A DNA stretch of 64,000 bases from Sulfitobacter sp. S190 (GTDB lineage: Bacteria > Pseudomonadota > Alphaproteobacteria > Rhodobacterales > Rhodobacteraceae): the NCBI RefSeq assembly GCF_025141935.1, contig NZ_CP081120.1, positions 2,998,501 through 3,062,500 of the forward strand, given 5' to 3'. Position numbers and translations under genes: made by a program. The notes under the pieces were generated by a model that was given only the letters and a program-made list of their open reading frames with translations, did no database searches and was not told the DNA's origin. Shown here in pieces: positions 7,174 through 64,000 of the stretch. Position 1 is the first letter of the stretch. Every line of letters begins with the position of its first letter.

Positions 7174-7279
7174 GACGGCCCCTTTCGGGGAGGAGGATAG
7201 CACGCACGCCCCGCGCGTCACCCGTTCGGGAACCAATCGCCGCGCCGCGCATTGGTTAACGGAACACAAGGAGAACATC

Positions 7280-7477
7280 ATGGACAACCCGAAAGAGAAC
7301 CCGACCGGCAATGCGATCAAGGACCCGGAGGATTGGGTCACCGGAGACGAACCGATGACCGGCGCGCAGGCGAGTTATTTGAAGACCCTGTGCGAGCAGA
7401 ACGGCGAGGAGTACGAGGACGGGCTGACGAAGGCAGAGGCGAGTGAGCGGATCGAGGCGTTGCAAGGGGCGGAGTAA
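7280..7477 (+). CDS. DUF3072 family small protein
   Basis: 65 residues from the ATG at 7280, with an AAGGAG ribosome-binding site at 7268-7273. The core MTGAQASYLKTLCEQNGEE, followed by the GLTKAEASERIEAL helix, is the DUF3072 signature. The protein is acidic and soluble with no membrane segment. Function unknown. It stands alone, divergent from the small membrane-protein gene and upstream of a long inverted repeat. Confidence 0.8.
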   Translation: MDNPKENPTGNAIKDPEDWVTGDEPMTGAQASYLKTLCEQNGEEYEDGLTKAEASERIEALQGAE

Positions 7478-7508
7478 ACGTCGCGCGGCGTTCGCGGTGG
7501 AGGGAAAG

Positions 7509-7582
7509 CGTAGGGTGTGCATTCATGCGCACCATCGCGCGGGTTGATGGGGTGGCCGGTGCGCATGAATGCGCACCCTACG
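7509..7582. repeat. 25-bp-arm inverted repeat (REP-like hairpin)
   Basis: The left arm (7509-7533, CGTAGGGTGTGCATTCATGC then GCACC) and right arm (7558-7582) are reverse complements except for one base, around a 24-base spacer. The arms themselves contain the self-complementary core GCATTCATGC/GCATGAATGC. It lies between the stop of the DUF3072 gene and the 3' end of the RelA/SpoT-domain gene, so the transcript would form a long hairpin at a convergent boundary. It could be a member of a dispersed repeat family, a bidirectional terminator, or a remnant of a small mobile element. Genome copy number is needed to decide. Confidence 0.75.
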
Positions 7583-7663
7583 GGTGGTTGTGGTTGAGCG
7601 CTGCGCAGGAGCGGAGGGGCGGGAAGCGGCAAAGTTTGCGGGATGTTCAAACCGTAACAGATG

Positions 7664-8692
7664 CTAGGAAAGTTTCATCAAACCTTCCCTTATGAAATCG
7701 ACAAACGCCCTAGCGTCGGAAAAGTAGTTCCTAAAGGCATCACGGATATTCGCCTCACTTTCGCCCCTCACAAGTACGATATCTGCGTCTTCACCAAACT
7801 CTCTTTCGAGATCATCGTAAGCCTCAATTGCCTTGTTCACATTTTCATACGCCCTTAGCTGAAGCGCATCTTCCTCCTCGCTCAAGTCAAAGCGAAAAAT
7901 CAAGATAGTATTCTTTTTGAAGTTGATGCCACGATCGGAAGTGCCACGCAGATTATCGAATGTCTGAAGTAAACCTAGGCGTCGATCAGCCGTGCGAAAC
8001 TCAGTTATCAACTTTTTGTCAGAAAGTTCCGAGCAGCAGGATTTCTGGCCCTCTACCGTTCGAGCTATGATCTCACTTGAGAGCTGGAAGTAACGCAAGT
8101 AATGCGACTGAGCGTCATCAAATTTGATTCGGTTAGAGGTTATCAGATCCGCAACTTCGACGGCAGTAGCCCAAGCATGTTGCGGCAGAGTTCGATATTG
8201 GATTTCAAGTTTTAGCCCATTCCAGGGTTTGCCCCCGACTGAATTAACTGAGTATTGATAAACGTCGTGTATGCCGCGATAGCCTGTCGATTTCGGCTTT
8301 TGTATATAGTCAAATTTCTGCGGGTCATGATTCAGATGATGTTTCCAGCGAGCACTGTGCATTGAACTTCTCACAGCGTGCAGATCCTCTACGTTGTTAA
8401 AGACCATTCTGCAGCCTGCAATATCGTGCATCGAGGAAAGCGGCATGTTGGGTTCACGCACCAGTTTATCAAGAATCGTATTTCTGCGTTTCAACCTCTG
8501 ACCAACCGATGTAGCGATTCCTTTCGAATGATTTCGAATATTCGCTTGGAAAGTATTCAAAATGTAAGCATGTGAAGCACGAAAGTTTTCGAGAACCCGA
8601 TTATCTTCGGATGTCGCACAATCCTTCACGATCCTTTTTCCGGCTGACCGTATTCTGCTGTTCGTGTATTTAGGACGGGCAAAATTAACCAT
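7664..8692 (-). CDS. stand-alone RelA/SpoT-domain protein
   Basis: 342 residues. Core synthetase motifs are present in order: MHDIAGCRMVFNNVEDLHAV, the substrate loop KPKSTGYRGIHDVYQY, and LEIQYRTLPQHAWATAVE with the conserved Glu and Gln. There is no N-terminal HD hydrolase and no TGS or ACT region, so it is neither a long Rel nor SpoT. The C-terminal 140 residues are not recognised. Relatives include small alarmone synthetases and toxic enzymes (ToxSAS, CapRel-type) that pyrophosphorylate nucleotides or tRNA. The gene is visibly AT-richer than its neighbours and uses AT-ending codons, suggesting horizontal acquisition. An AAGGGA site precedes the ATG at 8692. No separate antitoxin gene is apparent. 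Confidence 0.82.
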   Translation of the reverse strand: MVNFARPKYTNSRIRSAGKRIVKDCATSEDNRVLENFRASHAYILNTFQANIRNHSKGIATSVGQRLKRRNTILDKLVREPNMPLSSMHDIAGCRMVFNNVEDLHAVRSSMHSARWKHHLNHDPQKFDYIQKPKSTGYRGIHDVYQYSVNSVGGKPWNGLKLEIQYRTLPQHAWATAVEVADLITSNRIKFDDAQSHYLRYFQLSSEIIARTVEGQKSCCSELSDKKLITEFRTADRRLGLLQTFDNLRGTSDRGINFKKNTILIFRFDLSEEEDALQLRAYENVNKAIEAYDDLEREFGEDADIVLVRGESEANIRDAFRNYFSDARAFVDFIREGLMKLS

Positions 8693-45660: not shown

Positions 45661-48168
45661 TCAGTCGCTTTCCAACGCGCGTGCGGTCGACTTCCAGACG
45701 TCGACCAAGTCTCCCCGAGCCGCGACGATGAAATCAACGTCACCTCGTTTGGCCGCTGTCTCGATCGCGCGGAGGGCTTCACGAAACGGACCGGCGCCGA
45801 AAACCGCAGCGCTTCCGGCTACTTTGTGGGTCCGTGATGCGATTTCGGCGAGATCGGAGGCGTCGTGCGTCGCGAGCCAGTCAATCAGGTCTTCGGCTTC
45901 CTGTTCAAAGCGCGACAGCAGCCTTTCGAACGTCTCGTTTCCAAGACTATCTCGCGTTTCCGACATATGGGCGGCATCGAGCATCGCCCCAACAGGGGTG
46001 TGTTCTTTCATGGTGCCGACGCGGTTGATCATCGCTCTCAACGCGTCGCGGGACAAAGGTTTGGTCAGGATCTCATCCATTCCGTCGGCAAGGAACTTTT
46101 GTTGCTCCTCTATCATGGCATTCGCAGTCAGCGCCACGATCGGGGTCTTTGCCGCCAGCCCACTGCCGCCCCGAATGGCGCGTGTCGCGGCGCGGCCGTC
46201 CATGACGGGCATGCTGATGTCCATCAGGATCAGGTCAAAGCACTCTTTCGCCGCTGCACTGACGCCTTCGGCACCGTCATTGGCCTCTGTCACGATATGC
46301 CTGTCCGATTGCAGCATCTCGCGCGCGACGATGCGGTTGACTTCGTTGTCCTCGACCAGAAGGACGTTGAGCGGTGCGGTGGCGTGAACGTCGTCAACCT
46401 CGGGTGTGTGCTGCGTTGGCGCGGTGGTTGCCTCGACCGGAATAGAAACCCAGAATGTGCTCCCCTTTCCCAAGGTGCTGTCGACCCCGATTTCACCGCC
46501 CAATGCGTTTATGAACCGTTTGGCAATGCTGAGACCCAAACCGGTTCCGTCGACATTGCGGTCATAGGCCGTGTTGCCCGTGACAAAGTCGTCAAACACG
46601 CGCTCTGCAAGATCTTGCGACAGTCCGGGGCCGGTATCCGTGATTTTGACCCTCAGTTCCGTGGCGTCGGGCGTGCCTGTGTTCTTGATCGAGACATCCA
46701 CCTTGCCACCGGTCGTGAATTTCACGGCATTGCCGATCAGGTTCATCATCACATGCTGGAGGCGGTCGTGATCGGACAAGATCCAATGCACCGGGTGCCC
46801 ATGCCAACTCCATGACAACGATGTGCCGTTCTTGGCCGCGGCGCCGCTCTGGTTGTCGATAATGTCTTGAAGAAGCTCGGAAATGTTGACCGGTTCAGAA
46901 CGGGTGCTGAGCTTGCCGGCGTCATAGCGCGTGATGTCGAGCACATCCGAAATATGGCTCATCAACAAACGTCCGGAGGTTTCCATATGGCCAACGTACC
47001 GATCCTGGTCCGCGTCCAGCTTGGTATCGCGCAGCAGGTTCATGTTTCCGAGCAGACCATTCAGCGGGGTCCTGATTTCGTGGCTCATCGTGGACAAAAA
47101 GTCGGTTTTCAGTTTTTCACCGGCGAGTGCTTTGTCACGGGCCGCAACCAGTTCAGCCTCCGCTGCAACGCGGTGCGAAATATCACGCAAGAAGGCGATG
47201 AATATCTCACCCTGATCGGTCGTTGCAGACTGGATTGCGAGCTCGACGGGGAAAACCTGCCCGTCGTGGCGTTTGGCCTCCAGTTGTACGCGTCCTTTGC
47301 CGACAACGCGCTTTTCGCCCTTGTCGCGCATACGCTCCATGCCGGCGTCATGTGCGCTGCGCAAATGGTCCGGAACGATGACAGAACCGATGTCTTTTCC
47401 CAAAACATCCGCTTCCTTGTAGCCAAAAATTGCTTCGGCAGCCGGGCTGAATTCGAGAATGTCGCCATTTGAATCGCAGACGATCACACCGTCGAGCGAT
47501 GTGCTCATCACGGTGGTCATGCGCGTGGACGTCTGGCGGTTCTCGCGTTCGCGTCGATAGATGCGCGCGTTGAGGCGGTTTAGAAACAGAACGGTGAGGG
47601 TCAGCACTGCAATCAGCGCGGCGATGGCAATTGCCAATTGCGTCACCGTGCGGGCCATGGCCTGCCTTTGCTCATCTGCGACCTGTGCGAAGGTATCGAG
47701 GCCGGAATTCGCCAGTGCGCGCGTGACAGGGGCTGTGGCGCGCGTCAGGGCCGCAAGATCCGGCAATCGGGCGATGAGCTCGTCATCCGGACCGTCAATG
47801 ATCACAACGGCGTCGTCGAGAAATGCGAGCAGGTCGTCAAGATACTGGCGTGAGGTCGGGTCGGCGCGCAGCCCTTCGAAAACCGTGGCTTGCTCGAGGG
47901 TCGTGACACGGCTGAAGAAAACATCGAACTCCTGACGCAGCTTCGCCAGATCGATAGGGTCGGCCGCGACTTCATTCTGGAAATCGATGAATTCGACCTG
48001 CGACTGCACCAGAGACCATTGCACGTTGTCGGATTGTGCCGACTCCAGAACGCGAATTTCGCGCGCGACGTTGAAGGTCAGAATCGCAATGGCGAGTATG
48101 GCGACGCCCCCCGCAATCAGGGCAAAGGCCCTGCCCCGGATCGCGCGTTTGGGTAGGTCTGTCGACAA
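45661..48168 (-). CDS. hybrid sensor histidine kinase with PAS, REC and Hpt domains
   Basis: 835 residues from a TTG at 48168 preceded by AAAGGA; another TTG at 48261 would overlap the upstream gene by 53 bases. Two membrane helices (AFALIAGGVAILAIAILTF and IAIAALIAVLTLTVLFL) bracket a ~140-residue periplasmic helical domain. A PAS domain (DGVIVCDSNGDILEFSPAAE) leads to HisKA with His363 in STMSHEIRTPLNG, an HATPase domain (GTGLGLSIAKRFI), a receiver with Asp650 in LILMDISMPVMDG and a C-terminal Hpt with His781 in RTHKVAGSAAVFG. It is a complete phosphorelay ending in Hpt, so it can pass phosphate to a separate receiver such as those at 49949 and 50674. It is downstream of, and probably cotranscribed with, the periplasmic protein gene. 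Confidence 0.95.
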   Translation of the reverse strand: MSTDLPKRAIRGRAFALIAGGVAILAIAILTFNVAREIRVLESAQSDNVQWSLVQSQVEFIDFQNEVAADPIDLAKLRQEFDVFFSRVTTLEQATVFEGLRADPTSRQYLDDLLAFLDDAVVIIDGPDDELIARLPDLAALTRATAPVTRALANSGLDTFAQVADEQRQAMARTVTQLAIAIAALIAVLTLTVLFLNRLNARIYRRERENRQTSTRMTTVMSTSLDGVIVCDSNGDILEFSPAAEAIFGYKEADVLGKDIGSVIVPDHLRSAHDAGMERMRDKGEKRVVGKGRVQLEAKRHDGQVFPVELAIQSATTDQGEIFIAFLRDISHRVAAEAELVAARDKALAGEKLKTDFLSTMSHEIRTPLNGLLGNMNLLRDTKLDADQDRYVGHMETSGRLLMSHISDVLDITRYDAGKLSTRSEPVNISELLQDIIDNQSGAAAKNGTSLSWSWHGHPVHWILSDHDRLQHVMMNLIGNAVKFTTGGKVDVSIKNTGTPDATELRVKITDTGPGLSQDLAERVFDDFVTGNTAYDRNVDGTGLGLSIAKRFINALGGEIGVDSTLGKGSTFWVSIPVEATTAPTQHTPEVDDVHATAPLNVLLVEDNEVNRIVAREMLQSDRHIVTEANDGAEGVSAAAKECFDLILMDISMPVMDGRAATRAIRGGSGLAAKTPIVALTANAMIEEQQKFLADGMDEILTKPLSRDALRAMINRVGTMKEHTPVGAMLDAAHMSETRDSLGNETFERLLSRFEQEAEDLIDWLATHDASDLAEIASRTHKVAGSAAVFGAGPFREALRAIETAAKRGDVDFIVAARGDLVDVWKSTARALESD

Positions 48169-48208
48169 GCTGGTGTCCTTTGAAAGCGCGCCTTGCGGCT
48201 TGTTAGGG

Positions 48209-48712
48209 TTACTGAACGATTTCCAGTCTGTCGAGTTGCCAGATACTCCGGGAGTAGACAACTTCGGAGCGGTAATCGGCGTTGCTGTCGTATGGATAGA
48301 TGACCCAAAGAGGCCCCTTGTCGCGTACGGTCATTTCTTCACCGTCCATCAGGTAGGCGATGATCGGGCCGCCTTCGACGGCGTCGGACACAGGGATTTC
48401 GACGGCATAGTCGTTGATGGCCGTCGCAACCAGTGTGCCATCTTCAACCCCCAGCTCGGCCATCAAATCTGCCAGTGACACGCCTGTGAAGGTGTGGACC
48501 CCGTCGGTCCAGATCGTACTGGTTTCGAACGTGGTTTCGGGGAGCGCGCGCAGCATGCCCATGTCCAGCGCCAGAGTGCTCTCTCCGGAAGACGTGGTGA
48601 TGTCGCCTGAAATGCTCAGCAGTGGTGTAGGCTGATTGTCTGCCAAAGCGGAGTGGGACAAGCCTATCGCCAATGCGGCGACGGATGCGAAACGAACGAT
48701 TGTCTGAAACAT
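48209..48712 (-). CDS. periplasmic molybdopterin-oxidoreductase-fold protein without cysteine
   Basis: 167 residues with a signal peptide (VRFASVAALAIGLSHSALA). The body (LRALPETTFETSTIWTDGVH, FTGVSLADLMAELG, KGPLWVIYPYD and a SIWQLDRLEI end) fits the Oxidored_molyb (sulfite-oxidase) domain as a single small domain. It contains no cysteine, so the Mo-ligating Cys of sulfite oxidases is absent and it is unlikely to be a molybdoenzyme. It lies 40 bases upstream of the kinase gene and may sense a ligand for it. A 20-bp palindrome lies 73 bases upstream of its start. Confidence 0.78.
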   Translation of the reverse strand: MFQTIVRFASVAALAIGLSHSALADNQPTPLLSISGDITTSSGESTLALDMGMLRALPETTFETSTIWTDGVHTFTGVSLADLMAELGVEDGTLVATAINDYAVEIPVSDAVEGGPIIAYLMDGEEMTVRDKGPLWVIYPYDSNADYRSEVVYSRSIWQLDRLEIVQ

Positions 48713-48785
48713 GAAAGGGTTCCTTGCGTTGAACCAGTGTTATTGCACCCGCAGCGCAAAATCGCATTTGGGCAAACGGATACCG

Positions 48786-48805
48786 ACCTATCCGAACGGA
48801 TAGGT
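48786..48805. promoter_or_regulatory. 20-bp palindrome, copy 1 (sensor operon)
   Basis: ACCTATCCGAACGGATAGGT: nine-base arms, perfectly complementary, around AA. It is 73 bases upstream of the periplasmic sensor-protein gene (minus strand) and 29 bases past the galU stop. Two other copies lie at 49845 and 50564, each in front of a gene of the same system. Length and ACCT...AGGT ends resemble the lux box of LuxR-type HTH proteins, which fits the LuxR-type regulator at 49949. Confidence 0.8.
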
Positions 48806-48834
48806 CCGCGCGTCGCGACACCCGAAGAGTGATG

Positions 48835-49722
48835 TTACGCGACCAGACGGAATGGCTGGCGCTTTTCGTTGAGGAAGGCGGCGTATTCGCTTTGCAGGTC
48901 CGCGCGGTCCATGGCGAAGGCTGTTGTCGCTTGCACGTATCCCTGCACCGATCCGCAATCGAACCGCTGCCCGTCGAAGGTGAACCCATGCACGCCAACC
49001 GTTGAGACATCCGCGTTTATCGCATCTGTCAGTTGCAACTCGCCGCCCGCGCCGGGGCCGAGATTGTCGAGCTGATCGAAGATTGATCGGTCCAGAATAT
49101 ATCGGCCGATAACGGCCTTGGTAGATGGCGCCAAATCCGCGCGCGGTTTTTCGATCAAGCCCAGCGCTCTGGACACGCGGCCCTGTTCGGATGCCACATC
49201 AAGCACACCGTATTTGCTGATGTCGGATCGGGGCACATCCATCGTCGCCACCATGTGGCCGCCCAGTTCGCGGTGCACCTCGACCATCTGGGCCAAGGCA
49301 CCTTTTTCGCTTTTGATCACGTCGTCGGGAAGGATCACGGCAAAAGCTTCATCGCCGATCAGTTTACGGGCCTGACGCACCGCGTGGCCCAGACCCAAAG
49401 GCTGCGATTGTCGCAGTAAGGTCAACGCGCCTTCGGCCATGCGCGTGCAGTCCAGCGCGGCCAGAGCTTCTGTTTTGCCTGCCGCTTGCAGCCGTGTCTC
49501 AAGAGCGGCGGCGGTATCGAAATAGTCCTCCAACGCGCCTTTTCCTGCGGCCGAAACGAAAATGAATTCCTCCACCCCGGCATCGCGGGCTTCGTCCACA
49601 GCGTATTGGATTAACGGGCGATCCACCAAGGTGATCATTTCCTTGGGAACAGATTTTGTCGCCGGCAGAAAGCGCGTGCCCATTCCGGCGACGGGGAAAA
49701 CAGCTTTGCGGATATGTGTCAT
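48835..49722 (-). CDS. galU: UTP-glucose-1-phosphate uridylyltransferase
   Basis: 295 residues. The nucleotidyltransferase start KAVFPVAGMGTRFLPATKSV is followed by PKEMITLVDRPLIQYAVDEA, FVSAAGKGALEDYFD, and the GELQLTDAI motif near residue 230. It makes UDP-glucose from UTP and glucose-1-phosphate, the donor for glucans and other polysaccharides. It sits between the sensor operon and the LuxR-type regulator. A palindrome at 49845 is 122 bases upstream of its start, so it may be co-regulated with the exopolysaccharide operon, to which it would supply donor sugar. Confidence 0.96.
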   Translation of the reverse strand: MTHIRKAVFPVAGMGTRFLPATKSVPKEMITLVDRPLIQYAVDEARDAGVEEFIFVSAAGKGALEDYFDTAAALETRLQAAGKTEALAALDCTRMAEGALTLLRQSQPLGLGHAVRQARKLIGDEAFAVILPDDVIKSEKGALAQMVEVHRELGGHMVATMDVPRSDISKYGVLDVASEQGRVSRALGLIEKPRADLAPSTKAVIGRYILDRSIFDQLDNLGPGAGGELQLTDAINADVSTVGVHGFTFDGQRFDCGSVQGYVQATTAFAMDRADLQSEYAAFLNEKRQPFRLVA

Positions 49723-49844
49723 GTGAATGCTTTCATCGTATTTCGGTTGGGCCGCTTATGGGCCCACACCGCTCTTCCGATCTACATAGCGGACGGACAC
49801 GCACAGGGCGCATGCGGGTCGGGCGATAACCAATTGGGCGCGCG

Positions 49845-49864
49845 CCCTACCCGAATGGGTAGGG
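49845..49864. promoter_or_regulatory. 20-bp palindrome, copy 2 (response regulator / galU)
   Basis: CCCTACCCGAATGGGTAGGG: same 20-bp design as copies 1 and 3 with compensating changes in both arms, so the symmetry is kept while the sequence changes. It is 84 bases upstream of the LuxR-type regulator start and 122 bases from the divergent galU start. This suggests autoregulation and possibly galU control. Confidence 0.78.
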
Positions 49865-49948
49865 ATGACCGGCGATTCCCCTTTTCCGACCGCCATCCTA
49901 ACGTCATAGTTGTGGTGTAGTTCGCCTCCAAAGGCCGAGGAAAATAAC

Positions 49949-50563
49949 ATGAGAATCCTAATCGCTGACGATCACGACCTCTTGCGGGATACTCTTGTGA
50001 TGTTTCTGGAGAACGCAGGCGGAATCGAAACCGAAGCGGTGGGTACCTACGGCGACGCGATTGCCATGATCGACGCCGGTCCTGCCTTTGATCTGGTCCT
50101 TCTCGACTTTAACATGCCGGGCATGAACGGGTTGGACGGGCTCAAATCCGCGCTGACCCACGGGGATGGCCAGCGGGTTGCGCTGGTGTCCGGTGAAGCC
50201 AGCAGAAAAATTGCGGAAGACGCGCTCGAGGCGGGGGCCGCCGGGTTTGTGCCCAAATCGCTCCCCGCAAAGTCGCTGGTCAATGCCGTCAGGTTCATGG
50301 CGATGGGGGAGCAGTACGCCCCGATCGATTTCATGACCGCGGAAGAGGAAGTGGAAGAAAATCCGCTGGCAGCGAACCTGACCGAACGCGAACTGCAGGT
50401 TCTGAAGGGGCTGACCGAAGGCAAGTCCAACAAGGAAATCGCCCGCGACCTCGATATTTCGGAACCCACCATCAAGCTGCATATGAAAACGCTGTACCGC
50501 AAGGTCGGCGCTGCCAACCGCACACAGGCGGCACTGATCGCGCGCGAGGCGGGATTGTTCTGA
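49949..50563 (+). CDS. LuxR/NarL-family response regulator
   Basis: 204 residues from the ATG at 49949, with GAGG upstream. Receiver: acidic pocket ILIADDHDLLR and phosphoacceptor Asp53 in LVLLDFNMPGMNGLDG, with a Lys in GFVPKSLPAK. The C-terminal LuxR HTH is LTERELQVLKGLTEGKSNKE followed by IARDLDISEPTIKLHMKTL. It is the natural output for the hybrid kinase's Hpt. I propose it binds the three 20-bp palindromes of this region, one of which precedes its own gene and one of which immediately follows its stop codon. Confidence 0.95.
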   Translation: MRILIADDHDLLRDTLVMFLENAGGIETEAVGTYGDAIAMIDAGPAFDLVLLDFNMPGMNGLDGLKSALTHGDGQRVALVSGEASRKIAEDALEAGAAGFVPKSLPAKSLVNAVRFMAMGEQYAPIDFMTAEEEVEENPLAANLTERELQVLKGLTEGKSNKEIARDLDISEPTIKLHMKTLYRKVGAANRTQAALIAREAGLF

Positions 50564-50583
50564 ACCTATCCGAACGGATGGGT
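50564..50583. promoter_or_regulatory. 20-bp palindrome, copy 3 (partner-switch / exopolysaccharide operon)
   Basis: ACCTATCCGAACGGATGGGT differs from copy 1 by one base, which leaves a single weakened pair (T:A to T:G). It starts at the base after the response-regulator stop and is 90 bases upstream of the receiver-phosphatase gene that heads the operon to 59.4 kb. Confidence 0.8.
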
Positions 50584-50673: not shown

Positions 50674-51948
50674 ATGCCGGCACCACACTGCACAGTAAAT
50701 ACAGATGATCCGTCGGTCGCATTGGCACCGATCGCCGGTGCGCGTGTGTCGGACGCCGACGCAAGGTCGGGAGCGCCCGCGTTGAAGGTGGTCGTCGCTG
50801 AAGACAGCGAATTGCAGCGATTGTTCCTGTGCAGCCTCATCAATAGTCTGGGCTTTGATGCGATTGAGGCCGAAGACGGCCGCGCGGCATTGCGTCTGAT
50901 CCGGCAGTCGGGTGCGCAGATCGTGATTTGTGATCTCGAGATGCCCAACCTTGACGGCATCGGGCTGACACGCGAAATCAGACAGCTTGGCCTCGACCAT
51001 TATGTACATGTCATCATGGTGACGGGTGCGGACGAAACCGATATCCGCGACGAGGCGCTGCTGGCGGGGGTGGATGATTTCATCACGAAAGGCAGCAGCA
51101 CTGCGATACTCAAGGCCCGCCTGCGCACCGCGACACGTCTTATCGCCCACGCGGCGGAGCTGGCGGAACGTAGCAATATTCTGAAAGAGACCAACGCGCG
51201 GATCGAAGAAGATCTGCGCGCAGCGGCAGAGGCGCAACGCCAGCTTTTGCCAACCCTGCGAGACGACATCCTGGGCTTTAGCGTGGCGTCGGCGTTCGTG
51301 CCGTCCGCTATCGTGTCCGGTGACATGTTCGGCTGCTTTGAACTCGAGAACGGAAATCTTGGTTTCTACGCAATCGATGTGTCAGGACACGGTGTTCACG
51401 CGGCCTTGTTGTCGGTCGCGATTGGCCACCTGGTGACGCCCGAATACTTCCAAAGTCAGGCATTTGACGATCACGGCTCGGCCGATCCTGCGGCCTTGGT
51501 CGCGGCGTTGAATGTCCGGTTCAGCGCGTCGGACACTGATGACTACTTCACCATGTTCTGCGGCATCATCGATACGTCCAGCGGCCAGCTTGCTTACTGT
51601 CAGGCTGGGTATCCGTCACCATTTTGTGTCAACGGTGCGGGTGTTGGCGAACCGATCGGCGATGGTGGATTTCCGGTGGGGTTGATTGCCAGTGCCCGCT
51701 ATGCGACCGACGTTCACCAGATCGAAGTTGGCGGCGGTTTGGTCATCTGTTCGGACGCGGCATGCGAGGCCGAAAACGCCAATCGCGAATTCTTTGGCAG
51801 CGGTCGGGTTTACGCGGTGGCGCAAACGATCGCCACGGCCAGACCCTGCGATATCCCCGGAAAAATGGTCAGCGCGCTTACCCAGTGGCGCGGTGGAAAA
51901 CCCCTGGAAGACGACCTTACTGTCGTCACCCTTAAACGGAGGTCATGA
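50674..51948 (+). CDS. response regulator-PP2C (SpoIIE/RsbU-type) phosphatase
   Basis: 424 residues from the ATG at 50674, with AAGGAG at 50661-50666. Residues ~38-155 are a receiver with Asp87 in IVICDLEMPNLDG and a Lys in DDFITKG. A coiled-coil linker follows (AAELAERSNILKETNARIEE). Residues ~200-424 are a SpoIIE/PP2C domain with metal-binding Asp217 (IVSGDMFG) and Asp235 (FYAIDVSGHGVHAALLS) and the late PLEDDLTVVTL. It should dephosphorylate a STAS-domain partner when its receiver is phosphorylated. The next gene encodes such a STAS protein. Confidence 0.95.
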   Translation: MPAPHCTVNTDDPSVALAPIAGARVSDADARSGAPALKVVVAEDSELQRLFLCSLINSLGFDAIEAEDGRAALRLIRQSGAQIVICDLEMPNLDGIGLTREIRQLGLDHYVHVIMVTGADETDIRDEALLAGVDDFITKGSSTAILKARLRTATRLIAHAAELAERSNILKETNARIEEDLRAAAEAQRQLLPTLRDDILGFSVASAFVPSAIVSGDMFGCFELENGNLGFYAIDVSGHGVHAALLSVAIGHLVTPEYFQSQAFDDHGSADPAALVAALNVRFSASDTDDYFTMFCGIIDTSSGQLAYCQAGYPSPFCVNGAGVGEPIGDGGFPVGLIASARYATDVHQIEVGGGLVICSDAACEAENANREFFGSGRVYAVAQTIATARPCDIPGKMVSALTQWRGGKPLEDDLTVVTLKRRS

Positions 51949-51949
51949 G

Positions 51950-52294
51950 ATGATCCATACAACCCCGCAAGACATGGGCATCACAGCGATCCGCCCCGGT
52001 GTCGACCGCCTGACGGCCGCAAACGCCAAGACCTTCAAGGACGATGTGACCCGGTTGATTGATCGCGGGTCAGCGCAGTTGGTCATCGATTTCAACGACG
52101 TGACCTTCGTGGATTCCTCCGGCCTTGGCGCGCTTGTCGGTGTGCTCAAAAAGATCGGCCATCGCGGTGATCTTGCCGTGTGCGGGCTGAATTCCGATGT
52201 GGCCCAGATGTTCAGGATCTGCCGCATGGATCAGGTGTTCAAGACCTTTGGTACTGTCGAAGGTGCCGTTGCGAAGATGGCAGAAGACCTGTGA
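51950..52294 (+). CDS. STAS-domain anti-sigma factor antagonist
   Basis: 114 residues from the ATG at 51950, one base after the phosphatase stop, with a GGAGG site. The phosphorylation-loop signature is VIDFNDVTFVDSSGLGALVG, with Ser56/Ser57 in the DSSGLG motif. Proteins of this type (SpoIIAA, RsbV) are phosphorylated by an RsbW-like kinase and reactivated by a PP2C phosphatase; both partners are its immediate neighbours. It probably binds the kinase or a downstream effector of polysaccharide synthesis. Confidence 0.94.
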   Translation: MIHTTPQDMGITAIRPGVDRLTAANAKTFKDDVTRLIDRGSAQLVIDFNDVTFVDSSGLGALVGVLKKIGHRGDLAVCGLNSDVAQMFRICRMDQVFKTFGTVEGAVAKMAEDL

Positions 52295-52707
52295 TCCGAC
52301 AGAGCTTTCATATGCGCAACGATCTTGGCGATGTGGACCGAGTGGTGCTGTCGATGAAGGCCAGCGTGCAAGGGGCGCTTGGCGCATCCAGCCTCGTGAA
52401 GTTCGAGATCAGCCTGTCCGAAGCGCTGACCAATCTGGTGAAGCATGCGCGCACAAGCGACCGATCCGCGCCGATCGACATCGAGCTGGACGAAACCGAC
52501 ACCAGCGTTCGTGTCGAGATGTTCGACCCTGTCGGCGCACAGCCCTTTGATCTGCGCGACCATGCCCGACCCCTCGCTTCCGTTGATCCACTGGCCGAGA
52601 GCGGCCGTGGGCTCGGCCTTTTTCTTCAGTGCTCGGACGACGTGGATTACGGCCCCAAGGCCGACCGCATGTGTCTGTCACTTTCATTTTCGAAATCAGG
52701 AGACTGA
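52291..52707 (+). CDS. RsbW/SpoIIAB-like ATP-binding kinase (anti-sigma type)
   Basis: 138 residues from a GTG at 52291 that overlaps the STAS stop by four bases. HATPase_c signatures are FEISLSEALTNLVKHA (N-box, Asn47), FDPVG (residues 79-82 region) and SGRGLGLFL (G-box, residues 104-112). It lacks a HisKA domain, so it should act as a serine kinase on the STAS protein. Classical members also sequester a sigma factor; no sigma gene is near. It completes a three-gene partner-switch module. Confidence 0.92.
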   Translation: MIRQSFHMRNDLGDVDRVVLSMKASVQGALGASSLVKFEISLSEALTNLVKHARTSDRSAPIDIELDETDTSVRVEMFDPVGAQPFDLRDHARPLASVDPLAESGRGLGLFLQCSDDVDYGPKADRMCLSLSFSKSGD

Positions 52708-52711
52708 TCTT

Positions 52712-54442
52712 ATGACCCGATCCAAATCCGCGCCTTGGCTGTTGGCTGGCGCCGCATCGTTGTTTGCATTCTTTCCGTTGTCGAACGGGCGGGCGCAGGA
52801 CGTTGATGCCAGTGCATCAACGCTGACGCTTGATGGTGTATCCGTAGAGGGCGAGACCTATCGCAGTGTGACGATCACATCCGCGGCGCCCCTGTCTGTC
52901 CGGTTTGGCGATATGGTTCAGGCACAGACCTGCGCGCGCGGTCCGATGGGACAATCGCGTGTTCATTCCGGGCGCAACGGGCAACTGACGCCGCGCGAAT
53001 TCGAAATGGCCAAGACGGCATGGTCCTATTTCGAGAGCAGCTATCAGTCTGAAACCGGGCTGGTGAATGCCGTCGGCTCTTTCCCGTCCACGACGCTGTG
53101 GGACACGGCATCCTATATCAGTGCCATGGTTGCGGCGTACGAGCTATGTGTGATCGACAAGCGCACGTTTGATGACCGCGCCAACCGTCTGATCAACACC
53201 CTGCGCAACCTGACGCTCTATCGCGGTGAGGCGCCCAACAAGGTGTACAACGCAGCAACCGGTGAAATGGTGGATTATGCCAACCAGCCGGGCGAAATCG
53301 GGATGTCAGCGAATGACATCGGTCGTCTTCTGGTCTGGCTCCAGATCCTCAAGGAGCGTCATCCGCATCTGGCCAATGGCGTCGACAACGTCCCTATGCG
53401 TTGGAACTTCTGCAATCTTATCAACGAAGACGGTCGCATGTTCGGGTCTTTCACGCAATCGGATGGCGATACGCGCTATGTGCAGGAAGGGCGTCTTGGC
53501 TATGAGGAATATGCCGCCAAGGGCTTCGCGCTGTGGGGCTTTGACGTAGATCGCGCGATGTCGCCCGAGTCGTTGAATTTTGTCGAGATTTTCGGCGTCC
53601 GTGTGCCCTATGACGGGCGTGATCCGCGCGTGTTCAAGAACCAGAACTACGTGCTCACGGAAGGCTACATACTTGACGGTCTGGAGTTGGGTTGGGATCT
53701 GCCGACAGATCGCAGCAATGACGGTATGGTGGCCAGCAATGGTTGGCGCGCCGAATTTGCCCAACGCATTTATCTCGTGCAGCAGCGCCGGTTCGAGCAG
53801 ACCGGTGTGATCACCGCCCGCTCCGAACACCAGGTCGAAGGCAGCCCGTATTTCGTTTACGACAGCATCTTTGCGGATGGGTATCCGTGGAACACGCTCG
53901 ACCCGACAGGAGAGTACCAGCCGGACCGCGCGGCAGTTTCCGCAAAAGCGGCCGTGGGGATGTGGGCGCTGTGGGACACGGATTATACCGACCTGTTGTT
54001 CGAAGCCGTCGCTGATCTGTCCGAGCCTGATCGCGGGTTTTATGAAGGTCTTTATGAAAACGGCAACGGGTATATCCCGCTCCAGACAGCCAACAACAAC
54101 GGCATCATTCTGGCGGCACTTTTGTACAAAGTGCAGGGTCCGATCCTGCAGCGTGTGAACCAAAACACCCAGGTCTGGGACACTGCATTCATCGGCACGG
54201 ATATTCGTGACAACAAATGCCACCCCAACCGGATGGTCGAAGAAGTGCCGTGCTGTGCCTGCGGCAACGCCAACCAGATCGCTCCTGTCATTCCGGTGGA
54301 GGACTTCGTTTACTGCCGTCCTGTTACCGGGGGCCAAGACATCGGGGCTACCGAATGCAGCACGGTGGAACACAACCTGCCCCTTCCGCAGGTGCGCAAG
54401 GTACTGCCCTCCAGCTGTTCGATCCCGGTGGCAGACCGATGA
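52712..54442 (+). CDS. secreted DUF3131 protein with cysteine-rich tail
   Basis: 576 residues from the ATG at 52712, five bases after the kinase stop. A signal peptide (WLLAGAASLFAFFPLSNGRA) exports it. Residues ~95-510 form a DUF3131 domain with FEMAKTAWSYFESSYQ, then TGLVNAVGSFPSTTLWDTAS and a glutamate/aspartate-rich core, resembling (alpha/alpha)-barrel glycosidases. The last ~75 residues are Cys-rich (DNKCHP, PCCACGN, YCRP, ATECS, SSCS), probably disulphide-bonded. It may trim, modify or bind the polysaccharide in the periplasm. Paralogous to 57413-58738. Confidence 0.88.
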   Translation: MTRSKSAPWLLAGAASLFAFFPLSNGRAQDVDASASTLTLDGVSVEGETYRSVTITSAAPLSVRFGDMVQAQTCARGPMGQSRVHSGRNGQLTPREFEMAKTAWSYFESSYQSETGLVNAVGSFPSTTLWDTASYISAMVAAYELCVIDKRTFDDRANRLINTLRNLTLYRGEAPNKVYNAATGEMVDYANQPGEIGMSANDIGRLLVWLQILKERHPHLANGVDNVPMRWNFCNLINEDGRMFGSFTQSDGDTRYVQEGRLGYEEYAAKGFALWGFDVDRAMSPESLNFVEIFGVRVPYDGRDPRVFKNQNYVLTEGYILDGLELGWDLPTDRSNDGMVASNGWRAEFAQRIYLVQQRRFEQTGVITARSEHQVEGSPYFVYDSIFADGYPWNTLDPTGEYQPDRAAVSAKAAVGMWALWDTDYTDLLFEAVADLSEPDRGFYEGLYENGNGYIPLQTANNNGIILAALLYKVQGPILQRVNQNTQVWDTAFIGTDIRDNKCHPNRMVEEVPCCACGNANQIAPVIPVEDFVYCRPVTGGQDIGATECSTVEHNLPLPQVRKVLPSSCSIPVADR

Positions 54443-55587
54443 CCGCGGCGCATAAACCCCGTCTTGTCTGGTTTGACGCCAACCGCGTGTTTGCGGCCTT
54501 CGGTGTCGTTCTGATCCACTCCTCCACCGACTTCGGCGGGCAGGCGTTTGCGGACGCGGATCAGGCGCAGCGCATCGTGCCGGTGTTCCTGCGGTCTTTG
54601 GGTGAGTTTTCGGGATCCGAGATGTTCTTCATGTTCTCGCTGTTCCTGATGGCGATGCGCGTGGACAAGAAAATGCCGACCTATGGCAGCGCGATTGCGG
54701 TTCAGGCCAAACGCCTGTTGGTGCCCTTTGCGTTCTGGGTGGTGTTCTATGCATTCTTCCGACTGTTCAAGGCGGATACGTTCAACTACGCGCCCTACCT
54801 TTGGGACCAGTTGGGGCAGCTCCAAAGCTGGCTTGGCTACTTCATCCTCGGCAAATCGCAGTATCACATGCACTTCTTGCCGACTTTGTTCGCGCTGTTC
54901 CTGTTCTATCCGGTGATGCGGTCAGCGACCCGTTACCCTATCCTTGGCCTGACCGTCGTCGTCACCATCGGCGTGATGAACAACGTCCAGGGGTTCGTGT
55001 GGGGATTGGACCTTGACCCCGTATTGCGCGACTACGTTATCTGCGCGCTCAAGATCTTTGGGTATGTCGGGTACGGCATGGCGGCATTCGCGATCTACGG
55101 TTTGTGGAATGACGGTATCCCGCGCGGTGAATCGCGGTTGATCCGCCGCTGCGGGTTCTACTTTGCGATCCTCGCCTACCTCGCGACGTTGCCGTTTTTC
55201 AACGTGGCGTTTGAAACCGGATCATGGGGCGTGCGCGAGGGCTGGGACTACTACGGCCACTTCTTGATGCCGATCTGTGTGTTCCTCATCTTTATCGGCG
55301 GTCAGTATTTGCAATGGTCTCCGCGCTGGACCTTTCTGGCGAGCTATACGTTTGGCGTCTACCTCGTGCATCCGCTGGTGATCGATCTGTTTGACATTGC
55401 CGTCTTCGGAACTGGCCTGTCACGATCCATGAACCCATGGTTGATAGTCATCGCGCGCTTTGCATTTGCTTTGCCTGCATCCTTTGCACTCGCCTACGTG
55501 CTGTCGCAGCTCAAATCCCTCGCATGGACAATCGGACTGGGCCCAACCCCTTGGGATGTCGTGCGCTCCAAACGGGCGGAGGCGTGA
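54439..55587 (+). CDS. membrane acyltransferase family 3 protein
   Basis: 382 residues from the ATG at 54439, overlapping the DUF3131 stop by four bases. About ten membrane helices are predicted. The conserved N-terminal FDANRVFAAFGVVLIHSS includes the His required by acyltransferase-3 enzymes, and MFFMFSLFLMAM and ASYTFGVYLVHPLVIDLFD are also characteristic. Such proteins transfer acetyl or succinyl groups to exopolysaccharides. It overlaps the glycosyltransferase gene, so the product is probably an O-acylated polymer. Confidence 0.93.
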   Translation: MTAAHKPRLVWFDANRVFAAFGVVLIHSSTDFGGQAFADADQAQRIVPVFLRSLGEFSGSEMFFMFSLFLMAMRVDKKMPTYGSAIAVQAKRLLVPFAFWVVFYAFFRLFKADTFNYAPYLWDQLGQLQSWLGYFILGKSQYHMHFLPTLFALFLFYPVMRSATRYPILGLTVVVTIGVMNNVQGFVWGLDLDPVLRDYVICALKIFGYVGYGMAAFAIYGLWNDGIPRGESRLIRRCGFYFAILAYLATLPFFNVAFETGSWGVREGWDYYGHFLMPICVFLIFIGGQYLQWSPRWTFLASYTFGVYLVHPLVIDLFDIAVFGTGLSRSMNPWLIVIARFAFALPASFALAYVLSQLKSLAWTIGLGPTPWDVVRSKRAEA

Positions 55588-57410
55588 GCGTGGACGATTA
55601 TTTCGCGAAGTACGAAGACCGCCTGCCTCAGGCCCCATTGGAATATTCCGCCACCCGTGAGCTGGTTTGGCAGTTTCTGGCGACGGTCGCGTTGGTGGTT
55701 GGCGCCTGGTACATCTGGTGGCGCTGGACGGCATCGCTGAACACAGAGGCAATGTGGTTTGCCGTGCCTTTGGTCATCGCTGAAACCTGTGCCTTCATCG
55801 GGATGGTTTTGTTCGTCTTCAATCTTTGGAAGGACGAACCCCTAGAGATACTCGATGCGCCGGCCAGATTGATCGATATCGCACCTGACCACCCCGATGG
55901 CGCGCGCCCGATCTCGGTCGATGTGATGTTTGCGACGTACAACGAAGACCCGGAACTGGTTCTGCTCGGCATCAAGGACGCGCAGAACATCACCTATCCG
56001 CACCCGATTGATATCCGCATTCACGTGCTGGACGACGGGCGTCGGGACAAGATGCGAAAAATCGCGGAGGCGGCGGGCGCCAATTACATTTCACGCGACA
56101 CCAACGAAGGGTTCAAGGCTGGCAATCTGCGCCATGCGATGGAACAGACCTGTGGCGATTTGCTGGTGATTTGTGACGCCGACACGCGGCCATTTCCGAC
56201 CATCCTCGAAAATACGCTAGGCTATTTTCGCGAGCCGAAAATGGCGTGGGTCCAGACGCCGCAGTGGTTCTACGATCTGCCGGACGGGCAACCCTTCGAT
56301 GAAATGCTGCAGGGCCGTTTCGGTGCCAAGGCCGGTTCATTCGGGCGCGGGCTGCAAAAGATCATCGGTCCCGTGCAGCTGGGCACCGACCCGTTCGTGA
56401 GCGACCCTAAGATGTTTTACGATATCATCCAGCGCCGCAGAAACTGGGCCAATGCCTCGTTCTGCTGTGGGGCGGGATCCATCCACCGCCGTGAGGCCGT
56501 CATGGAGGCCGCCTTGCGCAGCTTTGGCAAGCAGGTCGAAAAGCGTACCCATGCCACCGAAGAAATGATCACCGTGGCGAGCAAGGAACGCGAAATCGCG
56601 CCGGATATGATGGACGCGATCCGCACCGAAGCGGCAACGACGGAAATTCTGACACCGTATCGGTTCCACGTGTCCGAGGACATCTACACATCCATTGTGC
56701 TGCACTCGGACCGCGAGCGTGGCTGGAAATCGAGAATGCATCCGATTGTCGAAAGCAAAATGCTGTCTCCGCAGGATTTGCTGACATGGACCGTGCAGAG
56801 ATACAAATATGCCGGCGGCAGTCTGGATATTCTGGTCAATGACAACCCGATCTTCGGGCGGGGGCTGACGTTTGCGCAACGCGTGATGTATGCGGCGACG
56901 TTTTATTCCTACCTTGCGCCGATCTGGAACCTCGTTTTTCTGGTGGCACCCGCGATTTATCTGTTTACCGGCGTGTCGCCGGTGGCGGCCTATTCGTCCG
57001 AATTCTTCTGGCACCTGATCCCGTTTCTGGTGACCTTGGAGCTGGCGATGATGGCGGGCACGTGGGGCATATCGGGATACGCGGCCAAGGCCAGTTATCT
57101 GTCGTTCTTCCCACTGGGTGCGCGGGCAATCTGGTCGGTGATGCGCGGCCAAACGATTTCGTTCAAGGTCACCCCAAAGGTGCGCCAGTCGGGAAATTTT
57201 CTCGCCCTCGTGCGCCCGCAGATTGCCGTTGTCATTGCGACAGTCGCGGCCACGATCTGGGCCTGCATCGCTCTGGCCCTTGGCACCACATCACATTCCG
57301 CCACGGGGGTCGTGTCCAACGTCCTTTGGGGTTTCAACAATTGCCTGGCGATGGCCGGCATCATCAGCGCGGCCCTCTGGGTGCCAGGCGCGACTGACGA
57401 AGGCGACTAA
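55584..57410 (+). CDS. cellulose synthase-like membrane glycosyltransferase (GT2)
   Basis: 608 residues from the GTG at 55584 (GTGA overlap); the GTG at 55590 is an alternative. Two N-terminal helices precede a GT2 domain with Asp150-Asp151 in HVLDDGRRDK, Asp198-x-Asp200 in VICDADTRPF and Glu365-Asp366 in HVSEDIYTS. The product-binding QxxRW motif reads Gln405-RYK-Tyr409 (QRYKY). Four or more C-terminal helices form the presumed channel. There is no PilZ domain, unlike BcsA, so c-di-GMP is not expected to bind it directly. It probably polymerises UDP-glucose or a related donor while secreting the chain. Confidence 0.93.
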   Translation: MSVDDYFAKYEDRLPQAPLEYSATRELVWQFLATVALVVGAWYIWWRWTASLNTEAMWFAVPLVIAETCAFIGMVLFVFNLWKDEPLEILDAPARLIDIAPDHPDGARPISVDVMFATYNEDPELVLLGIKDAQNITYPHPIDIRIHVLDDGRRDKMRKIAEAAGANYISRDTNEGFKAGNLRHAMEQTCGDLLVICDADTRPFPTILENTLGYFREPKMAWVQTPQWFYDLPDGQPFDEMLQGRFGAKAGSFGRGLQKIIGPVQLGTDPFVSDPKMFYDIIQRRRNWANASFCCGAGSIHRREAVMEAALRSFGKQVEKRTHATEEMITVASKEREIAPDMMDAIRTEAATTEILTPYRFHVSEDIYTSIVLHSDRERGWKSRMHPIVESKMLSPQDLLTWTVQRYKYAGGSLDILVNDNPIFGRGLTFAQRVMYAATFYSYLAPIWNLVFLVAPAIYLFTGVSPVAAYSSEFFWHLIPFLVTLELAMMAGTWGISGYAAKASYLSFFPLGARAIWSVMRGQTISFKVTPKVRQSGNFLALVRPQIAVVIATVAATIWACIALALGTTSHSATGVVSNVLWGFNNCLAMAGIISAALWVPGATDEGD

Positions 57411-57412
57411 TC

Positions 57413-58738
57413 ATGAGTTTCAAGACACACCTTATCAAGGCCCGCAGCCATCTGATTTTTCTCTTTGCATTGGGGTGCGGTCTGGTGCTGGTCACGACAA
57501 TCGACCGACGCGAAAATGAACAGGCAGACACGCAATCAGGAGCCACTGCAATGGCACACTTCGAAGAGGTCACGCCGCTGCCTTTGGCAATCACGGGCAC
57601 ATCGTCGCCCGAGGATTTAGCCTATGCAAAGATGGCGTGGCAGTACTTTGTGAACAACACGGATCCAAACACCGGGCTGGTCAATTCGACGGACAACTAC
57701 CCATCCACGACAACGTGGGAAACGGGGTCTTACTTCGTCGCCACTCTGTCAGCCAATCGTCTGGGCCTGATCGACGACGCAGAGACCATTGCCCGTATTG
57801 ATCTGGTGCTTGAGACGCTGATGGACATGCGCCTGTTCGACGATGCGTTGCCAAACAAGGCCTACAATGTGCGCACTGGCGATTTGGTCAACTACGCAAA
57901 TGAACCCGTGGAACGGGGCTTGGGTTGGTCTGCTTTGGACATTGCGCGCATGGTGGCGGCCCTTGGCCATGTGAACGCCAACTACCCCGAATTGGCAGCC
58001 AAGACCGCCAAAGTGATGGACCGTTGGGACCTGTCCTTGATGGTTGAAGATGGCCAGTTGATCGGCGGCAATATCGCGGACGGCGACCTGCGCTATGATC
58101 AAGAGGGGCGCGTTGGATACGAACAATACGCGGCCAAGGCGATGATGCTGTTCGGTTTCGACATGTTCCGCGCCTATGATGCAGAGAAAAATTTGATGGT
58201 GCGCGAGGTCGAAGGCCAACCGATCCCCGTTGACACGCGCCTGCACCGCAATGTCACGCCCGCCTTTACAGTCAGCGAACCCTATCTGTTTGACGGTCTG
58301 GAGTTCGGATTTGATGCGCGATCAGCCCGTTTCGCAAGCGCCATCTATGCCGCCCAGGAGGCGCGGTATCGCAACACCGGTATCCTGACCGCGGTCAGCG
58401 AATCCCACATCGATGTCGCGCCGTATTTTATTTATTCGTCCGTTTGGGGCGGTGGCGCAGACTGGGCCGTCATGTCATTCAGTGGTGAACGGTTGGACAG
58501 CAAGCGCACCATCACCACCAAGGTTGCCTTTGCCTGGGACGCCTTGTTCGGCACGGAATACACCAGCGACCTCGTGGCCGCGATTGCGCCGCTGGGTGAT
58601 CCGGACCGCGGGTGGCCCGAAGGCATCTATGAGGCCGACGGCACGACCAATTCATCCGTAACCGTGAACACAAACGCGGTTGTTCTGGCCGCATTGGCGT
58701 TTCGCGCCAACGGTCCACTGATCCGGGCTGGCCAATGA
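57413..58738 (+). CDS. DUF3131 protein (second copy)
   Basis: 441 residues from the ATG at 57413, two bases after the glycosyltransferase stop. An N-terminal hydrophobic segment (LIFLFALGCGLVLVTTI) is a signal anchor or signal peptide. The DUF3131 domain parallels the 52712 protein: YAKMAWQYFVNNTDPNTGLV and PSTTTWETGSYF align with its first half, and both have TRYVQEGRLGYEEYA / RYDQEGRVGYEQYA. It lacks the cysteine-rich tail. The pair probably performs related steps on the polymer. It overlaps the next gene by four bases. Confidence 0.88.
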   Translation: MSFKTHLIKARSHLIFLFALGCGLVLVTTIDRRENEQADTQSGATAMAHFEEVTPLPLAITGTSSPEDLAYAKMAWQYFVNNTDPNTGLVNSTDNYPSTTTWETGSYFVATLSANRLGLIDDAETIARIDLVLETLMDMRLFDDALPNKAYNVRTGDLVNYANEPVERGLGWSALDIARMVAALGHVNANYPELAAKTAKVMDRWDLSLMVEDGQLIGGNIADGDLRYDQEGRVGYEQYAAKAMMLFGFDMFRAYDAEKNLMVREVEGQPIPVDTRLHRNVTPAFTVSEPYLFDGLEFGFDARSARFASAIYAAQEARYRNTGILTAVSESHIDVAPYFIYSSVWGGGADWAVMSFSGERLDSKRTITTKVAFAWDALFGTEYTSDLVAAIAPLGDPDRGWPEGIYEADGTTNSSVTVNTNAVVLAALAFRANGPLIRAGQ

Positions 58739-59801: not shown

Positions 59802-59878
59802 TGGCGATCCCTGAAGGACTCGAACCCTCAACCTGCTGATTAGAAGTCAGCTGCTCTATCCAGTTGAGCTAAGGGACC
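59802..59878 (-). tRNA. tRNA-Arg (UCU anticodon)
   Basis: 77 bases with encoded CCA. Acceptor GGTCCCT/AGGGATC (one G:U pair), D arm GCTC-AACTGGATA-GAGC, anticodon stem GCTGA/TCAGC around CTTCTAA (anticodon TCT), T arm GAGGG-TTCGAGT-CCTTC. It decodes AGA and AGG. Confidence 0.96.
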
Positions 59879-59912
59879 GCTCAGCAGGTTATGCGCTATG
59901 GCTGCGCAGCCA

Positions 59913-60800
59913 TCAAGGGGCCATCGCGCCTGCGGGTAATGCGGCAAACCAGTCGGGCAATGTGGTTTTGAATTTGAAGGCGATGAACTGACTGCGCACG
60001 ATCGCGTGCTTGGTGATGCGTGCAGGTGCTGCGATTTGCGCGGCATAGGCCTTTGCACTGGCGGCTTCCCAAGGAATATGCGGAAAGGCTTCGGCCTTGG
60101 CGTATTGCGCGCGGGCACGTTTGGTGGCAGTACGCCATGCCTCGCCCGGCAGGCCTTTGCCTTCGCCGCGCGCGATAGCCTTGCGGTGGACGTTCGACGC
60201 AACAAGCGCGTCCGTATTGGCGAATTTGAGATGCGCGAGGTATACGCCACACGGCAGATCATAGGGGTAGCTTTCAATCCGGCGGCGGGGAACAGACACG
60301 CCATGCAGGTCGAGATGGGCCCCATTCCGGACGGCGAAGGCCTTGCTGTAGTGACCCGAAAACACGGCAGTACGGCGATGATCGAACACATTGGCGTCGT
60401 CGTCGAGAGGGGCGTCGGTCGCCATTTCAAATACGTTGAGGCCGAGGGCGAAGACAGTATTGCCTTCGCACGCGTGGAACAGGGCGCCGAAGTCTTTGTA
60501 GCGGTTAGGGTCGATCTGTATGATCTCGTCCGCATCGGTTCTGATGACCCAATCGTAGATTTGGGAGAGCGCGTCCTGGAAACCGTTGAGCATTTTGTTC
60601 CGGGTTGCATCAAAATGGCTGACGTCGTCGCGCGGGATCACGATGATATTTGCGGCGGGACAAAGTGATGCAATTCTTGGGTCAGCACCGTGCACGACGA
60701 TGAAGAGGTTTTGCGCACCGAGGTGGTGTTTGTAATGCATGTACCATTGTTTGATGGCCCAGTAGTCGCGGTAGACCATCGTCAAAGCGCAGATTTTCAT
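59913..60800 (-). CDS. glycosyltransferase family 2-like protein (Glyco_tranf_2_4)
   Basis: 295 residues. The N-terminus KICALTMVYRDYWAIKQWYM with HYKHHLGAQNLFIVVHG is typical of the Glyco_tranf_2_4/GT92-like family. A DxD-type metal-binding motif occurs in DWVIRTDADEIIQIDP, and VYLAHLKFANTDALV carries a late conserved His. No membrane segment. It may decorate a surface glycan. It lies between the 5S rRNA and tRNA-Arg genes on the same strand; an AT-rich 160-base gap upstream probably carries its promoter. Confidence 0.85.
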   Translation of the reverse strand: MKICALTMVYRDYWAIKQWYMHYKHHLGAQNLFIVVHGADPRIASLCPAANIIVIPRDDVSHFDATRNKMLNGFQDALSQIYDWVIRTDADEIIQIDPNRYKDFGALFHACEGNTVFALGLNVFEMATDAPLDDDANVFDHRRTAVFSGHYSKAFAVRNGAHLDLHGVSVPRRRIESYPYDLPCGVYLAHLKFANTDALVASNVHRKAIARGEGKGLPGEAWRTATKRARAQYAKAEAFPHIPWEAASAKAYAAQIAAPARITKHAIVRSQFIAFKFKTTLPDWFAALPAGAMAP

Positions 60801-60960
60801 ACCGAAGGACTATCCTTTGCTGGCTATAACCTGCAAAGGGTATTTGTTGTTGTCGGTATTTTTGTTGGTTTGGTGTTTTCAAGCCGCCGGGTGTGTAGTG
60901 TATTTTTGGGCGGATTGTTTTGTTATCGTTAAGAGAGATACACATTTTTTGATCTTATTA

Positions 60961-61078
<118 letters not shown>

Positions 61079-61162
61079 AAATAAAATCAAAAAATGTCCA
61101 AGCCGAGTACGGCTAATGTGTGTGTATGCTTTTGTTCTGGTAACAGTCTTTCTGTTACTGGA
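61079..61162 (-). other. 23S-5S spacer with processing hairpins
   Basis: GTAACAG-TCTTT-CTGTTAC (61141-61159) and AGCCG-AGTA-CGGCT (61102-61115) form two hairpins in the transcribed spacer just after the mature 23S end. They are likely RNase processing signals. No tRNA lies in this spacer. Confidence 0.55.

Positions 61163-64000
<2,838 letters not shown>

Follow-up and report, generated by a model that had tools for sequence, protein, structure and literature searches.

The alphaproteobacterial regulators of exopolysaccharide and development include CgrA of Rhodospirillum centenum, a LuxR-type response regulator. Operators of the regulator NarL have a 7-2-7 layout and a degenerate consensus of the TACYYMT type. 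In Escherichia coli, NarL combines a receiver with a GerE helix-turn-helix (HTH) domain, and according to the available part of PMC4549865 its inverted repeat is read by an HTH dimer. Single NarL sites activate at 65, 55 and 32 bp from the -10 element, as stated in the available part of PMC9314961. Another short palindrome is the lux box, a 20-bp site with the ends ACCT...AGGT, whose letters we took from the accessible portion of PMC4444344. Our literature search extended mostly to papers outside subscription journals; among these we found no description of the motif analyzed here or of the system it accompanies, also when the latter was sought via DUF3131.

The window, i.e., the whole 64,000-nucleotide stretch of Sulfitobacter sp. 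S190 DNA analyzed in this work, encodes a NarL/LuxR-type response regulator (RR) at 49949..50563 on the plus strand, which we propose as the binder of three palindromes. By description it resembles CgrA, likewise a LuxR-type response regulator. The Pfam receiver and HTH domains (PF00072 and PF00196) both scored above cut-off, an architecture shared with NarL, and the NarL structure 1a04 matched along residues 3-200. Nevertheless, we rejected the RR as a NarL orthologue: it reached 104.8 bits against a NarL equivalog cut-off of 250, and the register of its site differs. Compared with a NarL example site, TACCCCTAAAGGGGTA (16 bp, from the part of the source available), the family site CCTATCCNNNNGGATAGG differs in both sequence and register, with TA...TA two bases closer. 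Furthermore, the targets here are polysaccharide genes, unlike those of NarL. The RR is a NarL/FixJ-type regulator but not NarL, and its operator is of the same general kind with a sequence of its own.

The original prediction had also pointed to a resemblance with the lux box in length and ends. This kinship was not supported. In the letters given in the accessible portion of PMC4444344, 14 of 20 bases equal the palindrome, but the identity breaks at the best-conserved CC/GG core: the mismatches fall on positions 5, 7, 8, 11, 14 and 16 of the 20-mer, three of which (7, 8 and 14) hardly vary in the family matrix. A Pfam scan of the RR found no autoinducer domain, only the receiver, the HTH and a sub-cut-off match to sigma70 region 4. 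With a receiver present, no autoinducer domain and a different core, we rejected the RR as a quorum-type LuxR acting on a lux box.

Results

The three palindromes are putative operators without assigned strand. Copy 1 (ACCTATCCGAACGGATAGGT, 48786..48805) lies upstream of the molybdopterin-fold/kinase operon on the minus strand, copy 2 (CCCTACCCGAATGGGTAGGG, 49845..49864) in the gap that separates the RR gene from the divergent galU-like gene, and copy 3 (ACCTATCCGAACGGATGGGT, 50564..50583) directly after the RR stop codon, ahead of the phosphatase operon. Read directly from the sequence, each stands where it had been predicted, and the distances of 73, 84 and 90 bases to the ATG codons at 48712 (minus), 49949 (plus) and 50674 (plus) are arithmetically right. 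When the window was dinucleotide-shuffled 100 times, the palindrome pattern never matched. Within the 6 contigs (3.97 Mb) of the genome, the three window copies were the only mismatch-free occurrences of the degenerate 20-mer. Up to two mismatches added two further places (none for the reversed-pattern control), and these were rejected as additional targets, both lying within ORFs. A looser 18-mer gave two genome places without mismatch (copies 1 and 2) and three with one mismatch (two besides copy 3); when up to two were allowed it was at background, with 30 places genome-wide versus 41 for the reversed control. Scattering across the genome, named in the original prediction as evidence against it, was thus not found: the three strict copies stand alone.

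Copy 2 had been said to carry changes mirrored in both arms, taken as a mark of selection for a dimer site. Two changes are indeed mirrored (the outermost pair and the T/A pair 6/15), but the one at position 12 is not. As a mark of selection their support is modest, and we rejected them as strong proof, since complementarity across 203 family sites was little above expectation (0.44 versus 0.32 expected for the outer pair, 0.78 versus 0.74 for pair 6/15 of the 20-mer). At G000:C1:3131926-3132081, three half-matching copies of the motif are spaced by exactly 69 bases, which suggests an unrelated tandem repeat.

RR homologues, sought at E<=1e-40, were found in 150 of 295 family genomes. From 60 of the listed matches, 80 named loci and the window, 141 in all, we obtained 131 loci with distinct RR proteins. 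These were picked by RR similarity, a choice of which the family-wide scans alone are free, and their site counts are not independent because the loci are related. Between -8 and +3 kb of the RR, exact CCYAYCC-N4-GGRTRGG occurred at 112 sites in 70 of the 131 loci, versus a mean of 0.2 and a maximum of 5 for 104 exact palindromes with permuted arms in the same loci. With one mismatch allowed, there were 201 sites in 97 loci (permuted-arm controls: mean 4.1, maximum 37 sites), so that the motif is present at many orthologous loci, where its absence had been expected to speak against the prediction. The family consensus is CCTAYCC-N4-GGRTAGG, and named carriers include Sulfitobacter, Yoonia, Salipiger, Ruegeria, Loktanella, Octadecabacter and Phaeobacter. 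At up to one mismatch, a site was present in 24 of 26 loci with at least 75% RR identity, 29 of 35 at 70-75%, 37 of 49 at 65-70%, 6 of 11 at 60-65% and 1 of 10 at 50-60%. The 34 of 131 loci in which this search found no site count against the operator reading; one of them, L067, has an RR 78% identical and retains only eroded remnants. Among the 45 commonest recognition helices, grouping against motif presence yielded no clean single-residue rule, and three helix groups (6, 3 and 2 loci) had no site at all, though similar helices had one.

Sites cluster just upstream of the RR gene, just past its stop codon and ahead of the molybdopterin-fold gene. Sites are especially frequent at the position of copy 3, with 46 in the +600 bin. 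Counting both strands, a gene start was called no more than 320 bp from 159 of the 203 sites. In crude gene calls, in which families include fragments and some antisense ORFs, a site stood within 320 bp upstream of 55 of 78 molybdopterin-fold genes, 30 of 45 wzz-like genes, 16 of 37 Wzx genes and 4 of 7 phosphatase genes; for ORFs of the WecG, Wza and kinase families the counts were 25 of 76, 16 of 88 and 5 of 112. The RR family itself had a site in front of just 29 of 96 genes, which counts against the operator reading.

The link between motif and RR was supported by an unbiased scan of the 295 genomes and weakens with RR divergence. In 46 genomes the exact 18-mer CCTAYCC-N4-GGRTAGG was present, at 68 places in all, versus 9 for the reversed control; at least 41 of the 68 had an RR match within 10 kb. 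By hand counts, 40 of the 46 motif genomes contain an RR homologue (E<=1e-40) versus 110 of the 249 others (p=4e-8). Of the 27 distal places, 21 were examined with their neighborhoods. Five adjoin system genes, two of them in a polysaccharide cluster of genome G006 and one each in G243, G170 and G128. The G006 cluster lies on a contig other than that of the RR and has two exact sites, therefore regulation in trans is likely there. The remaining 16 are not beside system genes and count against the operator reading; one of them (G043, locus L244) precedes a different LuxR-type regulator. Three of the six other distal places were viewed in 3-kb loci: those in G010 and G073 precede that same other regulator, and the one in G156 lies between ribosomal-protein genes. 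G055, the only other genome in the sample from the genus of the window, has neither RR match nor motif.

Loci L040, L045 and L244, which belong to other genera, have a similar palindrome immediately in front of this different LuxR-type response regulator. The latter is a possible second user of the motif, and the sequence is therefore not exclusive to the RR.

The promoter layout was compared in 55 orthologous sensor-operon promoters, with the mirrored side of the palindrome as control. A third half-site, TATCC, lies at +14 from the dyad in the orientation of the first arm (48778..48782, minus strand, in the window); with up to one mismatch it was found at +14/+15 in 51 of 55 promoters versus 5 of 55 on the mirrored side. 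It is followed at +22 by a conserved TGCCC element (48770..48774, minus), a peak of information content, which was found with up to one mismatch at +22/+23 in 39 of 55 promoters and in at most 7 at any offset on the mirrored side. A putative extended -10 element, TGCAATAAC (48739..48747, minus), lies about 51 bp from the palindrome center. Its general form TGNCATA occurred with up to one mismatch at +49/+50 in 24 of 55 promoters; no offset on the mirrored side had it in more than 3. The window promoter has TATCC, TGCCC and, with one mismatch, TGNCATA. Among 31 wzz-type promoters the extended -10 signal did not appear, which counts against the operator reading.

The first target had been described as a sensor/kinase operon. 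This operon is there, but its first gene encodes a small Oxidored_molyb-domain protein of 167 amino acids (48209..48712, minus, by domain match), our proposed co-sensor, and the kinase comes second. The latter is a hybrid histidine kinase with PAS-HisKA-HATPase-REC-Hpt domains (45661..48261, minus, as the listed ORF, whose true start may lie further downstream). The N-terminus of the Oxidored_molyb-domain protein looks like that of an exported protein. Sulfite-oxidase-like molybdenum enzymes carry a metal-ligating cysteine. In the 78-member Oxidored_molyb family no conserved cysteine was found, the fullest cysteine column having 7 of 77 residues. The 167-residue protein is therefore probably no enzyme of that type and more likely serves in binding or sensing. 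The divergent gene at 48835..49722 (minus) encodes a GalU-like UTP-glucose-1-phosphate uridylyltransferase (TIGR01099, 301.4 bits, just below the cut-off of 326.8). Its suggested role as a target is plausible but weak: among the 96 loci where an RR gene was called, 19 have a WecG/galU pair diverging from it, but a site lies within 320 bp of only 3 of 32 galU-family ORFs.

On the output side, the plus-strand operon of the window starts with a receiver-SpoIIE (PP2C-type) phosphatase (50674..51948, by domain match), followed by a STAS-domain protein (51950..52294) and an RsbW-like HATPase_c_2 protein (52312..52707). Together these form a partner-switch module heading a polysaccharide operon (50674-52707). 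Downstream (52445-58738), two DUF3131 proteins (52445..54442 and 57413..58738) bracket an Acyltransferase 3 family protein (54217..55587) and a cellulose-synthase-like family 2 glycosyltransferase (55437..57410); for the first DUF3131 protein, the acyltransferase and the glycosyltransferase, the coordinates are those of listed ORFs, and the true starts are probably later. Just past the operon, at 59805-63997 on the minus strand, lie tRNA, 5S and 23S rRNA genes. The ORF at 61296 was rejected as a gene, being inside the 23S gene.

Of the 131 loci, 58 are of the Wzx/Wzz type, with a site in 57 of them, and 8 of the phosphatase/DUF3131 type, with a site in 7 (the exception is L067). The 65 loci of neither type had a site in 33 cases. 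The name wzz-like is tentative, because one such protein has no Pfam family and another only a sub-cut-off GNVR match. In the window's genome, neither a Wza query nor a wzz-like query, the latter run without positive control, found a match. As a control, the Wza query matched in 5 of 8 genomes; the unmatched ones were the window's genome, G015 and G123, and the latter two likewise have phosphatase-type loci (L069 and L067). In the best reading, the output of many relatives is a Wza/Wzx/Wzz-type cluster and that of the window's genome is the phosphatase/STAS/DUF3131/cellulose-synthase-like operon. Given these two locus types and the lack of Wza matches, the circuit, i.e., the regulator and its operators, seems to have been retained while the polysaccharide made has changed. 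On the RR protein tree, phosphatase and Wzx/Wzz loci taken alone require at least two changes, and the phosphatase label against all others requires three; support is low (26 of 128 branches starred), and the tree does not settle the direction and number of output changes.

Discussion

We consider it likely, with good confidence, that the palindrome is the operator of the RR at 49949-50563, placed upstream of three promoters that serve the sensor operon, the RR gene (perhaps also galU) and the exopolysaccharide output, and that the whole forms a self-reinforcing switch. The palindrome is very probably the docking site of the RR, because many marine relatives show the same arrangement. The phosphoacceptor pocket is intact: D7, D8, D53 and K103 are invariant in 131 of 131 RR homologues. 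Among the 12 commonest gene families of these loci, the RR alone has a recognized DNA-binding domain (f6 and f9 have no Pfam match). Within its own genome, three regulators match the RR at E<=1e-8, namely itself and two with 31-35% identity.

Mechanistically, the hybrid kinase probably sits in the membrane and probably receives its input from the small molybdopterin-fold protein. It may phosphorylate the RR via its Hpt domain. Phosphorylated RR is predicted to dimerize on the palindrome, with one NarL-type HTH per arm. The RR would then drive the sensor operon, its own gene, perhaps together with divergent galU, and the exopolysaccharide output operon; the outcome would be a self-reinforcing polysaccharide switch.

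We lean toward activation rather than repression by the RR, because the palindrome lies about 51 bp from the putative -10, inside the activating range of 32-65 bp for NarL; it is a similar distance to those given in the available part of PMC9314961. Alternatively, the RR might bind as a repressor, with the signal lifting the repression. Repression by NarL from sites close to the start point is described in the accessible text of PMC4549865, but in the sensor-operon promoters the palindrome and the third half-site stand upstream of the putative extended -10 and do not overlap it, and we regard repression as rather unlikely. A different DNA-binding protein, encoded elsewhere, could read the site, given that 6 of the 46 motif genomes have no RR match (hand count) and that in some genera the motif precedes a different LuxR-type regulator. 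However, the motif co-occurs with the RR across genomes and becomes rarer as RR identity falls, and this other regulator has no close homologue in the window's genome, where its sole match at E<=1e-10 is the RR itself at 27% identity. The PadR gene of the window (at 45026), present in 1 of 131 loci, was rejected as the binder, and altogether we find another binder improbable.

Activity as an RNA hairpin, be it a terminator or an attenuator, is very improbable. A stem of 7-9 bp can pair and copy 3 lies directly 3' of a stop codon, but the arm sequence itself is fixed beyond what complementarity demands, most sites lie near called gene starts on either strand (the 159 of 203 above), and none of the three window copies is followed by a T run. 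C-A cells (22) and T-G cells (23) are about equally frequent at the variable pair 5/14, therefore no wobble preference exists, and these pair counts led us to reject the hairpin. That the palindrome is a functionless scattered repeat or a mobile element, as three near copies inside 1.8 kb could suggest, we can practically discount: there are just three strict copies genome-wide, and the promoter placement recurs over dozens of genera with diverged flanks.

What we describe is a new regulon of an ordinary, known kind of genetic control. Evenly balanced, in our judgment, is the wider proposal of an undescribed polysaccharide regulon across the Roseobacteraceae and their kin, consisting of a hybrid kinase, a cysteine-less molybdopterin-fold co-sensor, one RR and an asymmetric operator of three half-sites, in which the RR and the operators persisted while the whole output was exchanged from a Wza/Wzx/Wzz type to the partner-switch/DUF3131/cellulose-synthase-like type. 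It would provide a readable operator for a widespread, apparently uncharacterized switch of surface polysaccharide, and hence of attachment and biofilm, in an abundant group of marine bacteria, and sequence alone would suffice to list candidate targets. The control circuit, moreover, looks to have stayed while the biosynthetic module under it was swapped. In locus L229 (G006, contig 43), a Wza homologue at 7261-8433 has in-frame stops in its aligned stretch, and the cluster retains two exact sites.
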